From Terrimicrobium sacchariphilum (GTDB lineage Bacteria; Verrucomicrobiota; Verrucomicrobiia; Chthoniobacterales; Terrimicrobiaceae): a stretch of 64,000 bases of DNA. The notes below the pieces were generated by a model, which was not told the DNA's origin, searched no databases, and saw only the letters and a program-made list of their open reading frames with translations. The position numbers and the translations under genes were made by a program. Position 1 is the stretch's first letter; each line of letters starts with the position of its first letter. Of this stretch, positions 25,554 to 58,332 are shown in pieces. The stretch covers positions 62,001 through 126,000 of the forward strand of contig NZ_BDCO01000002.1 of NCBI RefSeq assembly GCF_001613545.1. Direction: 5' to 3'.

Positions 25554-25876
25554 GGTTCTTGATCTTGCGAGAACCTGGCGCGCCCAGAGGCGTGCCGATC
25601 CTCATTCTTTCTTTGGTGCGAAGAAGGTTTTTAGCGCCCGCGCAGGTCGCACGACCGGACCCGGGCGAATGAGTTTTCCGACAACGAAGTATTCTGGCTC
25701 CTGGACGCTTTGTATTGCCTCGGCCCCGGCCTTCACCTTTGTTTCCAAAGATTGGCCTCCTTGCGGATGGGACCTCGTTTCCAGTTACAGCAGCGCAACT
25801 GCTCCCGGCTTTCACGGGATTCCATGCACTGTCGGATGAGGATGTTTTTAAGTAATCAGTCGATAGGCGATGAGAG
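25554..25876. other. 323-base gap upstream of the PEP-CTERM gene
   Basis: This non-coding stretch lies between the metH stop and the PEP-CTERM start. It must hold the promoter and 5' leader of the PEP-CTERM/prepilin pair. I find no gene, strong hairpin or repeat in it. Confidence 0.5.
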
Positions 25877-53790: not shown

Positions 53791-53940
53791 GTCGTGTCCG
53801 GGCGGCGTGATCGGAGGCGCTGCCAGTGAGCCACATGCGAAAGTCGGAACAGCCGATGGAGCAGGTAAAACAGGTGTTGCGAGGATTGCCGAGAGGGATC
53901 GCTGGAAAAGTGCGCCGGGCTGGTGGAGATTGCTCCTGCC

Positions 53941-54993
53941 ATGAACGCCACTCCGCCGCTCATCGAGCTTTCGCCCCGAGGACCGTATGTTACCGACCTG
54001 CCGGATGCGCCAGGGCGCTCGGTCGTCACCCCATCGGAACCCGCCTTTCCCATCTACCGCCTGCTCTCCGAGCTGCGCTCGCCGCTGGAGCTGCGTGAGC
54101 TGATGATCCAGCCCGTACGCACGGGGTATATCGGCAAGCCCGGTGATCCCCCGCCGGCGCATCTGCCGCCCGGCGCGGCGGAGCTCTTCCCCGATGTCGC
54201 GGTGGGCGAGATTGCCGTGCACGGCGAGGATGGGCTGGTGCATTGCCGCACATATTCCGTGCCTGCGACGGACGACACGCTGCGGCCCATCGTGCTCTAC
54301 ATCCATGGCGGGGGCTTCACCGTCGGCACCTCAGCCGATACCGCCTCGATCACGAGTCGCATGGCGCACGATACCGGCGCGGTCGTGGTGAGCGTGGATT
54401 ACCGCATGGCCCCGGAGTGGCCCTTCCCGCACGCGGTGGAGGATTGCTTTGCCGTCTACCGCGCTCTGCGGGAGGAGGCAATGCGCCTCGGGGGCGATCC
54501 GGAGAAGATCCTCGTCGCCGGGGACTCGGCGGGCGGCAATCTCTCGGCGGTGCTTCCGCTCGTGGCCCGCGACCGCGACGTGCCGGTTCCGGCGGGAGCC
54601 ATCCTGCTTTGTCCGATCACGAATTTTTGCGCCGAGGAGCACCCCGGCTTTGAGCGCCTCGCCGCGCGGGGCATCGTGTACGACACGGCCTTCTTTGGCT
54701 TCATCCGGGGCGCATACCTGCTCCGCAAGTCCAACTGGACCCACCCCTACGCCAGCCCCGCGCTGGGCGACCTGGGCGGCTTCCCGCGCACATTGGTGGT
54801 CTGTGGTTCCGACGATCCTGTCGTTGAGGACAACCGCGCCTTTGCCGAGCGGCTGAAGGCTCACGGCGTCCACGCCGAACTCTTCGAGCGGCCGCATATG
54901 CCGCACGGCTACTATTTCTTCCCCGGCCTCGTCCCCGAGGGCGATGAAGCGCTGGCGGCGGTGAGCGACTTCATCCGCGCCTGCACGGCATGA
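53941..54993 (+). CDS. Alpha/beta hydrolase, hormone-sensitive-lipase family esterase
   Basis: The 350-residue protein from ATG 53941 has the HSL-family oxyanion motif HGGGFTVG (near residue 122), the nucleophile elbow GDSAGGNLS (near 197), acid Asp in VCGSDDPVVEDNR and catalytic His in RPHMPHGYY. About 90 residues precede the hydrolase fold. These enzymes split short-chain acyl esters. No signal peptide is visible. A GTG at 53923 is an alternative start. Confidence 0.88.
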   Translation: MNATPPLIELSPRGPYVTDLPDAPGRSVVTPSEPAFPIYRLLSELRSPLELRELMIQPVRTGYIGKPGDPPPAHLPPGAAELFPDVAVGEIAVHGEDGLVHCRTYSVPATDDTLRPIVLYIHGGGFTVGTSADTASITSRMAHDTGAVVVSVDYRMAPEWPFPHAVEDCFAVYRALREEAMRLGGDPEKILVAGDSAGGNLSAVLPLVARDRDVPVPAGAILLCPITNFCAEEHPGFERLAARGIVYDTAFFGFIRGAYLLRKSNWTHPYASPALGDLGGFPRTLVVCGSDDPVVEDNRAFAERLKAHGVHAELFERPHMPHGYYFFPGLVPEGDEALAAVSDFIRACTA

Positions 54994-55050
54994 GACCTCG
55001 CCGGGGTCGGCTATTGGGAAAAAATCGCCTCTTCGGAGAAGTAAACGAAC

Positions 55051-55208
55051 GGCGCGAGAGAACCGCTCTTTTTGCCGCAGGGGTGCGTTGTGTTCGTTTA
55101 GCGGATTCCCGAGGGAAAGTGCCGTTCGTTTCCGGCTCGTTTACCGTTTCGTTTACCTTCATTCAGGAAATATCCTCCTAAGGGTCTGAACGAGGAAACG
55201 AACGAGGA
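55051..55208 (+). repeat. TTCGTTT-family intergenic repeat, copy R1
   Basis: The core 55091-55208 aligns with copies R2-R4 (TTCGTTT...CCGAGGGAAAGTGCCGTTCG, CTCGTTTACCGTTTCGTTTACC), then a TCCTCCTAAGGG palindromic centre and a GAAACGAACGA end arm. Its flank at 55051 contains TAAACGAACGGC, the inverse of GCCGTTCGTTT. It lies 57 bases beyond the stop of the upstream hydrolase gene and makes up much of a 478-base gap (54994-55471). Confidence 0.75.
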
Positions 55209-55305
55209 GGGGAGGGGGGAAGATGTCTTGGAACGCTGTTCCGTTTCCGGTGTGTGAGGCTGAGGACTGCCCGGGTTGGGAAATCGCTTTCTATGAGAAA
55301 ACCGA

Positions 55306-55470
55306 TGAAACGAACGGACGGGAGAATGCCCGTTTGTTTCACCTTCCCGTTTCCGGTTCGTTTCACACTCTCCGAGGGGGAATGAACTTCGTTTCAGGCT
55401 CGTTTCGCATTTCGTTACGCTTCGTTTCTCGTTTCACTCCCTAGGGGAGATTATCGGAAACGAACGAAAT
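55306..55470 (+). repeat. TTCGTTT-family intergenic repeat, copy R2
   Basis: This copy shows GGTTCGTTTCACACTCTCCG, then GGCTCGTTTCGCATTTCGTT, CGCTTCGTTTC, the palindrome CTCCCTAGGGGAG and the end arm GAAACGAACGAAA. It stops two bases from the stop codon of the convergent membrane-protein gene (55472). The 5' flank also carries GATGAAACGAACGG in inverse orientation. Confidence 0.75.
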
Positions 55471-55471
55471 G

Positions 55472-56155
55472 CTATCCCTGGATCATCCGCTTCAGCGCCT
55501 GGCCGATGGTGTCGGAGCCGGGGGCGCAGATTTCCAGCGTGAAGCCCATCACGGCCAGGGCGGCGGCGGTGATGAGCACGTAGAGCCAGGTGCGGCGCAC
55601 GGCTGCGCCCAGCCAGTGCTCCTCGGCGGCAATGCGGAGGCGTCGATACAGCACGCTGGTGAGGAAGATATCCACGAAGATCTCCGCGATGAGCAGCGGC
55701 GCGCCTGCGATGGCCATGCAGATCGTTACGGCGACCGCGGCAATGGCCGCCAGCACGATGGCCAGCCCGCAGCCTTCGTCGGGAACGAAGTCCATCCCAT
55801 CGAGCCAGTCCCACGTGCGGGATTTGGTAGTCTTTAAAATATACGGGCTGGGAGGGGTGGACTGAAAATCCTCCTGCAGCTCCGCGTCGTCGGGGTTGAA
55901 CTGCGCTTTCTCCAGTTCCACCCACAGGCGGATGAGGAGGAGAAAGACGCCATAAGCGCCCAGCACGGCCGCGGGATAGCGCACGGCCATGTTGGTGATG
56001 CCGAGCTTCAGCAGGCCGAGGGAAAGCCCAAATCCCGCCGTGCCGGTGAAGACAAGGATCAGCCCCAGGGTGAAGCGAGGAAGCGCCCTGCGGGTAAAAT
56101 AACGCTGCAACGCATGGCGTGCGCGGTCGCGCATCGTCTCCGGGTCGTCCGTCAT
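55472..56155 (-). CDS. Multi-pass membrane protein of unknown function
   Basis: The 227-residue protein has about four membrane helices: FTLGLILVFTGTAGFGLSLG, AAVLGAYGVFLLLIRLWVEL, the segment around GLAIVLAAIAAVAVTICMAI, and WLYVLITAAALAVMGFTLEI. A polar loop between helices 2 and 3 is acidic. No family was recognised. It is flanked on both sides by copies of the TTCGTTT repeat (R2 just after its stop, R3 105 bases before its start). Confidence 0.65.
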   Translation of the reverse strand: MTDDPETMRDRARHALQRYFTRRALPRFTLGLILVFTGTAGFGLSLGLLKLGITNMAVRYPAAVLGAYGVFLLLIRLWVELEKAQFNPDDAELQEDFQSTPPSPYILKTTKSRTWDWLDGMDFVPDEGCGLAIVLAAIAAVAVTICMAIAGAPLLIAEIFVDIFLTSVLYRRLRIAAEEHWLGAAVRRTWLYVLITAAALAVMGFTLEICAPGSDTIGQALKRMIQG

Positions 56156-56260
56156 GGCCGGGACTCCACCAAAACCCGCTAAGCTTAGCGATCAGATATC
56201 GCGTGTGTCGGCTGCGCCACTGTAAAAGCAGCGCTGCAATGAGCGGAATGAAAAGTGCGC

Positions 56261-56398
56261 TTTCGTTTACCTCCCTCATTTCCAGTTCGTTTACCGAATC
56301 CCCGAGAGAAAGTGCCGTTCGTTTCCGGCTCGTTTACCGTTTCGTTCACCTTCGTTTCCGAAAAACGCCCCTTAGGAGGTGAAACGAGAAACGAAGGA
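56261..56398 (+). repeat. TTCGTTT-family intergenic repeat, copy R3
   Basis: R3 matches R1 almost base for base across AGTGCCGTTCGTTTCCGGCT and CGTTTACCGTTTCGTT. The end hairpin has perfect 10-base arms: CCTTCGTTTC (56349-56358) and GAAACGAAGG (56388-56397), around a CCCCTTAGGAGG centre. It begins 40 bases after the stop of the next minus-strand gene (56438). Confidence 0.8.
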
Positions 56399-56437
56399 TT
56401 AACGCTTGGAAAAGAGGCGTGCAGTAGCTCGGACTCG

Positions 56438-56902
56438 TCATGTGGTCACACCGCGCAAACCGGAGCAAAAGGCGATGGCCTGCCTTTGAATCTCCAAGCG
56501 CCTCTTCGCGGCGGCGACTTCCTTTTCCCAGTCGGGATAGTCCGGGGGAACCGTGGCAAAAAGCTCCAAGGCCTCGGCATACGCCCCGAGATTGATCAGG
56601 CAGATCGCGATGGTGAATCGCGCATAAGGCACCTTCTTATGACCAGGAGCTCTTTCGATGAATCGAGAGAGCAGCCTGATGCACCCCAGGTCGTCCTTGT
56701 CCTCGTAGATGCAGATCGCTTTGTAAAAGATAACGAGCGGGACAACGTCCTCGATTTCCGTCATGGCGTCGATGAGAGGGCGCGCTTCGCTGTACCTGTC
56801 TTCCGCGACAAGGTCGGCGATCCGGCAGACGGCTTCGTAGCTGGCCTCGGGAGTGAACATCACTCTTCCCTGACAGGCTCTTTTCTCCGAGCCAAGGCTC
56901 AA
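56438..56902 (-). CDS. Small helical repeat (TPR-like) protein of unknown function
   Basis: The 154-residue protein is helical and Ala/Leu-rich: ASYEAVCRIADLVAEDRYSE, then ICIYEDKDDLGCIRLLSRFI and ARFTIAICLINLGAYAEALE, a TPR-like helix-turn-helix pattern. There is no signal peptide. An internal ATG at 56860 may be the true start because the first 14 residues look unlike the rest. Repeats R3 and R4 flank it. Confidence 0.55.
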   Translation of the reverse strand: MSLGSEKRACQGRVMFTPEASYEAVCRIADLVAEDRYSEARPLIDAMTEIEDVVPLVIFYKAICIYEDKDDLGCIRLLSRFIERAPGHKKVPYARFTIAICLINLGAYAEALELFATVPPDYPDWEKEVAAAKRRLEIQRQAIAFCSGLRGVTT

Positions 56903-56937
56903 TCCCGCCGCGCAACGAGAGCAGCGGGAAATCGCCC

Positions 56938-57074
56938 TTTCGTTTCGCTCCCTTGTTTCCGGCTCGTTTCGCGAATCCCCGAGGGAACGGGCCGTTCGTT
57001 TCCGGCCCGTTTACCAGTTCGTTTCGCTTCGTTTCCGAAAATCGCCCCTAGGAGGTGAAACGAGAAACGAAGCG
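56938..57074 (+). repeat. TTCGTTT-family intergenic repeat, copy R4
   Basis: R4 has the full family layout. It ends in a hairpin with perfect 11-base arms, CGCTTCGTTTC (57025-57035) and GAAACGAAGCG (57064-57074), around GCCCCTAGGAGG. It lies 11 bases beyond the rhaA stop codon, between rhaA and the small helical-protein gene. Confidence 0.8.
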
Positions 57075-57084
57075 TAAAATTGCC

Positions 57085-58332
57085 TTAGCGCTTGGAAAGG
57101 ACGCTGGCCTCGTAGGCCTTCACTTCCTTGATCCAGGCGGGGCCGACGGGGGTGCCGTTGCGTTCGCAGAATTCGTCCCACACCGCGCCGAGCGGGAGCG
57201 TTTTGGCTTCCTCAAGGAGGGCGAGGCGGGTGGCGTAGTCACCGGAGTTCTCGGCATCGCGGAGCTGCGCGATGGGTTCGAGCAGGGCGGCGAGGAGGCT
57301 CTTCTGGGCGTTGCGGGTGCCGATGACCCAGGCGGCGATGCGGTTGATGCTGGCGTCGAAGAAATCGAGTCCGATGTGCGTACGGCTGAGGAAGCCCCCG
57401 CGCACGAGTTCCTCCATGATGGCGCGCGTGGCGTCGTCAAAGAGCACGACGTGGTCGCTGTCCCAGCGTACGCCGCGGCTCACGTGGAGCAGCAGCTCGG
57501 GGACGAATTGCAGCGTGGAGCTGATCTTGTCGGCGAGGCTCTCGGTCGGGTGGAAGTGACCCGCGTCGAGGCAGAGCGCCTTTTTGCGGCTCACGGCGTA
57601 GCCCATGTAAAACTCATGCGAGCCGACGACGTAGGACTCCGACCCGATGCCGAAGAGCTTGCACTCGACCGCATCGACGTGGTGGCGCGTGTTCAGCTGC
57701 TCGGAGAAGAGCGCGTCGAGCGAGGCCTCCAGGCGCTCGCGCGGGCTCTTGCGGTCGACGGGCAGATCCTTCGAGCCGTCGGGAATCCACACGTTCATCA
57801 CGCTGGGCTTGCCGAGCTGGCGGCCAAACTCCGCGCTGATGCGGCGGCAGCGACGGCCGTGCTCGATCCAGAAGGCGCGGATGCCGGCGTCGGGGCTGGA
57901 GAGCGTGTACCCGCTGGCCGAGAGGGGGTGCGAAAAATAGGATGGGTTGAAGTCGAGGCCGAGGCTGCGCTCCTTCGCCCAGTCGATCCAGCTCTGGAAG
58001 TGGGAAACCTCGATCTGGTTGCGGTCGGCCTTGCCGCTGGAAAAGTCGCCGTAGATGGCGTGGAGATTCAGGCGGCGGGAGCCGGGGATGAGGGCGAGGG
58101 CGGCGTCGAGATCGGCGCGGAGTTCCTCGATGGTGCGGGCCTTGCCGGGGTAGTTGCCCGTGGCCTGGATGCCGCCGGTGAGCGAGCCGCCGGTATTCTC
58201 AAATCCTCCCACGTCGTCGCCCTGCCAGCAGTGCAGGGAGATGGCGGTCTGGCCGAGCGTCTGGAGCGCGGCTTCGGTATCCACGCCGAGCTGGGCGTAG
58301 GTTTCTTTGGCGAGGGAGTAGGAGGAGGACAT
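57085..58332 (-). CDS. rhaA: L-rhamnose isomerase
   Basis: RhaA interconverts L-rhamnose and L-rhamnulose. The 415-residue product is full length and close to the E. coli type: [50 protein letters not shown] and the metal site in [14 protein letters not shown] and [12 protein letters not shown]. It is the last gene of the operon that starts with the DeoR-type regulator at 63378, with only a 18-base gap to lutC. Repeat R4 follows its stop. Confidence 0.95.

Follow-up and report, generated by a model that had tools for sequence, protein, structure and literature searches.

Helically phased repeat modules behind RepA-like helicase genes, probable replication origins of small tRNA-integrated elements, and their orphan copies in Terrimicrobium sacchariphilum

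The window analyzed here is a stretch of 64,000 nucleotides from Terrimicrobium sacchariphilum (contig NZ_BDCO01000002.1, positions 62,001 to 126,000). Four repeats (R1 to R4) are situated in it beside genes for a hydrolase, a protein without family, a small TPR protein and rhamnose isomerase (Table 1). A sequence-only reading had described them as four copies of a TTCGTTT-rich hairpin repeat, aligned along a common core in one orientation, and the copies proved to be real in these respects. TTCGTTT occurred 25 times in the window, compared to 6.8 expected occurrences (3.7-fold); none of 100 shuffles reached 25, and no comparable clusters were present in mononucleotide-shuffled windows. The perfect arms reported for R3 (CCTTCGTTTC/GAAACGAAGG, 10 bp) and R4 (CGCTTCGTTTC/GAAACGAAGCG, 11 bp) were found, and pairing of the arms was imperfect in R1 and R2. 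The distances of R2, R3 and R4 from minus-strand stop codons had also been given correctly, as had the position of R1 about 57 bases past a plus-strand stop. Some details were corrected: an inverted unit is also present at the left end of R1 and R2, and with this extra unit R1 starts at about 55043 instead of 55051. The terminal hairpin of R2 (55415-55464) is inverted relative to that of R4 (57028-57077), with 92% complementarity over 50 nt, and looks flipped, for example by template switching. Elsewhere in the window, a cobalamin riboswitch was detected at 25689-25823 on the minus strand (Rfam RF00174, 48.8 bits).

Table 1. Repeat modules, terminal hairpins and neighboring genes in the window
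Feature	Position	Strand	Description
R1	55043..55208	-	orphan module: iteron-like array, terminal inverted repeat, inverted unit at left end
R2	55306..55470	-	orphan module, 2 nt past stop of 227-aa gene
R3	56261..56398	-	orphan module, 40 nt past TPR gene
R4	56938..57074	-	orphan module, 11 nt past rhaA stop
Terminal hairpin of R4	57025..57074	.	11-bp arms around CCCCTAGG centre
Terminal hairpin of R3	56349..56397	.	10-bp arms around CCCCTTAGG centre
Neighbor gene	57085..58332	-	L-rhamnose isomerase (rhaA)
Neighbor gene	56438..56902	-	small TPR protein
Neighbor gene	55472..56155	-	227-aa protein, without family
Neighbor gene	53923..54993	+	alpha/beta hydrolase (Abhydrolase_3)

According to the sequence-only reading, a lack of further copies in the genome and its relatives would have made the repeat a local tandem duplication without function. 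Further copies were found in the same genome, in congeners and in another family of the order, so that this did not apply. Two of them, R5 and R6, lie 1.7 kb apart in the same genome (4.75 Mb), 2.7 Mb away from the window, and matched R1 to R4 with E values down to 1e-19. The copy in the other family (genome G046) was matched with an E value of 7e-7. In the two congeners there were four close copies of the same type, and orthologous positions there held three of a variant type. Of 213 genomes of the order, only 4, G046 among them, contained a strict array pattern. Beside rhaA, at about 80 loci of other lineages, a search by array pattern detected no copies.

R1 and R4 have orthologues at the corresponding places in both congeners and are thus retained in three species. 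The place of R2 was occupied by a GCAATGA-type module in congener G001, and the place of R3 by modules of this type in both congeners, in each case with the same layout. As the flanks of R3 contain remnants of the GCAATGA type together with a stretch resembling the 3' end of rhaA, R3 probably replaced a GCAATGA-type module by recombination with R4. The gene content beside the orphan copies is fluid across species; the hydrolase gene beside R1 occurs only in this genome and is absent from that place in both congeners. At the hydrolase junction (window 53823-55023) both congeners have a near-perfect GTTTC hairpin instead. The genus also contains solo palindromes with two GTTTC units per arm (L175:8875-9910, L176:9443-9484, L177:8465-10402, L178:8617-9667 and L181:9135-9177), some of them in divergent promoter regions; at orthologous places both arms had changed and their complementarity was preserved.

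R6 directly follows the stop codon of a gene for a RepA-like AAA_25 helicase (ATPase), and the G046 copy directly follows the stop of an AAA_25 ATPase gene that is homologous to the one before R6. Helicase homologues were detected in 15 of 210 genomes of the order, in 6 of 388 genomes of a phylum-wide sample and in 25 of 289 genomes of a second order. There are about 40 intact homologues in the class, and after most of them a module follows, usually no more than about 60 nt from the stop. R1 to R4 are members of this module family. The helicase-linked modules have lineage-specific units (GGAAAC, TGAAAC, GGCAAC, GCAATGA or GCAACGA) and share one design, with units placed whole helical turns apart and an inverted repeat of two units around a C(C/T)TA centre. 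The hairpin can lie on the side of the module that faces the helicase gene or on the far side, and the orientation of the module relative to this gene flips between lineages. A module was missing at the expected place after the helicase genes of G664, G604, G001b and G002b and was displaced in G640; the helicase gene of G150 is broken. In G001, a second ATPase paralogue is preceded, not followed, by a GTTTC hairpin (L136:10010-10052). In a PDB profile search (E values of 0.004 to 0.005) the helicase core matched RSF1010 RepA (1g8y) and the C-terminus a helix-turn-helix (HTH) regulator. Short repeats directly downstream of the helicase gene of the element were present, as in the origins of SaPI and SCCmec elements. 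Homology to SaPI Rep or Cch (MCM- or D5-like AAA+ proteins) was not found, the helicase belonging to AAA_25. No AT-rich unwinding element was identified. The 3' position noted before is real, but in the mobile elements the module is found 3' of one gene in particular, that of the helicase.

A related tyrosine integrase was encoded at 8 of the 16 loci that were read out, several of which adjoin a tRNA gene; the integrase of the one locus tested gave Phage_integrase and PHROG integrase matches. Five elements of 5-10 kb could be delimited by direct repeats of the tRNA end, with integrase, ATPase and module all inside. These are inserted at tRNA-Ser (G039; 6.0 kb, 70 bp repeat), tRNA-Arg (G057; 5.1 kb, 49 bp), tRNA-Cys (G012; 7.2 kb, 35 bp), tRNA-Gly (G056; 9.2 kb, 34 bp) and tRNA-Glu (G131; 9.7 kb, 21 bp), so that integrase, tRNA gene and tRNA-end repeat occur together at five loci. 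Some loci contain a primase-like gene (Toprim in G149, a weak DnaG match in G056). At the ATPase locus of the genus of the window, the flanks are conserved in three species and no integrase was present in the stretch read, and this locus therefore looks vertically kept. Genes for a C5 cytosine methylase, an MvaI/BcnI-type restriction enzyme and a Vsr endonuclease lie there beside R5, R6, the ATPase gene and a gene for a NERD protein (L007:2366-5363) as variable cargo. The module was rejected as an integrase attachment site, because tRNA repeats form the ends of the delimited elements and the module lies inside them. The suggestion of a mobile MITE-like element holds for the link to mobile DNA, since the module is fixed in tRNA-integrated elements, but the module does not look like a classical MITE: no transposase, target duplications or parent transposon were seen, and orthologous loci gave no clean empty sites for R1 to R4. 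A RAYT-type transposase, which had been proposed as a gene to look for, could not be connected with the repeats, as the only Y1_Tnp domain of the genome is unlinked to them; REP/RAYT elements, which have 20-40 nt palindromes with GTAG, were also rejected on the absence of GTAG from R1 to R4.

The spacing between like units (n = 114) showed peaks at 10-12, 20-22, 31-33 and 41-43, following one at 7-8 within the hairpin arms. The period was near 10.5 (R = 0.75), with a Rayleigh p of about 1e-28, or about 1e-13 for spacings of at least 15 alone, values that overstate the strength because arrays within one lineage are not independent. The hairpin centre C(C/T)TA was conserved in 29 of 37 cases, compared to 4.7 in shuffles (maximum 12), while arms and units changed.

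The C-terminus of the helicase is a winged HTH, and residues of its recognition helix track the unit sequence. This was determined by a scan of 287 columns of the helicase alignment, in which the unit classes had been assigned by eye from the hairpins. The HTH contains all three columns that best separated TGAAAC from GGAAAC (top 3 of 287). It also contains residue 440 (G046 numbering), which was Asn or His in 7 of 7 GGCAAC cases and in 0 of 30 others; for GGCAAC-type versus GGAAAC, this residue ranked first in raw information among the columns listed. The related helicases of G149 and G151 differ in unit and HTH together. In G652 and G664b, which have different units, 17 of 53 HTH residues differ, compared to 36 of 305 core residues. 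Divergence of the HTH alone is nevertheless no proof, as G648 and G654 have the same unit and yet differ in 20 of 53 HTH residues; the evidence lies in which residues differ. A tree of the helicase core provided three independent contrasts, all concordant, a number too small for significance (sign test, p = 0.25). A C-terminal HTH that may read the repeats is present, and its residues covary with the unit.

In viral contigs, an exact pattern search found no modules and a scan with a single protein found nothing, but a profile scan detected RepA-like helicases. At least six copies of one hexamer were present within 260 nt after the stop of 43 of the 76 RepA-like helicase genes (usable contigs found by profile, some of them near-copies of each other), compared to 25 of 2750 control windows, which were taken from all sequence and not only from 3' intergenic regions. 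The viral hexamers differ from one another and are unrelated to the units of the class; their spacing is mostly 11. These arrays are probably phage origins, amenable to automatic detection. As an observation on the proteins themselves, the viral helicases (L219-L298) have a C-terminal HTH, after which the hexamers follow in 11-bp phase with lineage-specific sequence.

The module is probably a double-stranded DNA binding array and, most likely, the replication origin of small tRNA-integrated elements in the class. With its C-terminal winged HTH, the RepA-like hexameric helicase would bind the units, which share one face of the DNA. Next to the terminal inverted repeat, bound helicases may then assemble and cause its opening or extrusion, whereby the C(C/T)TA centre of the hairpin would be offered to the primase of the element. 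R1 to R4 would be orphan copies in the host chromosome, related to R6 behind the vertically kept helicase gene, and may have been spread or homogenized through recombination between copies.

A structured RNA, a 3'-UTR element or a transcription terminator had been suggested earlier, in line with copies just past stop codons and with the good folding of each single copy. The consensus fold of 11 cores reached only -6 kcal/mol with a covariation term of -0.15, no Rfam 15 family matched the module even at E<=1, and 4 terminator-like sites compared to 3.4 in shuffles do not constitute an excess. As the units are spaced by DNA helical turns and the consensus RNA fold is weak, the module appears to act as DNA; the orientation to the gene also flips, and the RNA and terminator readings are very unlikely. 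Even less probable is that the module serves as the recombination site in a system of gene and site units resembling integrons or cassettes. Gene-plus-element units do stand in a row, and the genes beside the elements differ between species, but R1 to R4 lack the attC core motifs RYYYAAC/GTTRRRY, no integrase is near them, and in delimited elements the module is internal with integration at tRNA ends. Phased arrays are known also from partition and regulatory sites. Another DNA-binding protein (a regulator, nucleoid or partition protein) might therefore read the units as a centromere-like or regulatory array, with the helicase as a mere neighbor, and the solo hairpins in divergent promoter regions of the genus would fit this. 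This explanation is unlikely, if less so than the previous two, since no gene other than that of the helicase was constant beside the module across loci, residues of the helicase HTH track the unit, and viral RepA-like helicases share the layout.

For the orphans R1 to R4 the question is what makes hosts retain arrays resembling origins next to ordinary genes. Our first guess, a tentative one, is that the resident initiator-helicase still has its binding sites in them. In G001 and G002, some solitary modules have a unit type other than that of the resident helicase, and this argues against a role of these modules in binding the helicase. There is a nearly even chance that R1 to R4 are decaying relics or selfish repeats, moved by recombination or gene conversion and without present host function, a reading that applies to the orphans only and does not conflict with helicase-linked copies being origins. 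The clustering of copies in two places, the signs in R3 of an exchange for an R4-like copy together with sequence from the end of rhaA, the different subtypes at the same site between species and the several solitary copies without a matching helicase type in their own genome all point in this direction. On the other hand, three species have kept R1 and R4 at orthologous places while nearby spacers hardly align, and unit positions, for whose definition only the distant G046 copy was used, were less variable than others (18 of 119 versus 33 of 125; one-sided p = 0.02). It seems rather improbable that the host keeps solitary copies as chromosomal sites for a domesticated initiator-helicase, with the unit type changing as invaders change; such copies could be decoys titrating incoming satellite or phage initiators with the same unit, or extra helicase-loading sites.

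With the origin reading of the helicase-linked copies, an unexplained intergenic repeat becomes part of a predicted initiator/origin pair across a bacterial class, and in viral contigs such a predicted pair, with other units, accompanies RepA-like helicases. A readable specificity rule would follow from the match between residues of the recognition helix and the repeat sequence, and origins of otherwise unannotated satellites would become findable by sequence.

No paper describing the helicase-module system was found among the open-licence literature, and the module was compared with known origins. In the RSF1010 oriV (RepA, RepB', RepC, iterons and ssi hairpins), as far as it is outlined in PMC4234260, a RepA-type helicase is likewise combined with iterons and with hairpins for priming, but a separate RepC reads the iterons there, whereas here the HTH is carried by the helicase itself. 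Phage P4 is a satellite as well, and the repeats of its origin are bound by the winged helix of its alpha protein (outlined in PMC4234260), but P4 uses a single large primase-helicase protein and its repeats are unrelated. Plasmid pRN1 has a stem-loop of about 100 nt directly 3' of its replication protein gene that is needed for replication, and a C-terminal winged helix in this protein (PMC4234260); it differs in having no iterons and an SF3 helicase fused to a prim-pol. The closest layouts are those in which repeats beside a helicase gene are, according to the summary in PMC7581432, the experimental initiator site, namely SaPI and SCCmec. The C-terminal domain of SCCmec Cch2 binds direct repeats downstream of its gene, where a preferred priming site is located, and inverted repeats are present in the cch2 region (PMC7581432); SCCmec has only three units, of AAGTG, a D5/MCM-like helicase and an A-family polymerase primase. 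The C-terminal domain of SaPI Rep binds repeats directly downstream of its own gene, also in an integrated satellite-type element (summarized in PMC7581432), whereas the elements described here have an AAA_25 helicase (RSF1010 RepA fold by profile), other units, a two-unit hairpin with a conserved C(C/T)TA centre and chromosomal orphan copies. The module was not filed as a SaPI or SCC origin because the helicase family differs, but, judged by its layout, the proposed origin would work like those of SaPI and SCCmec.
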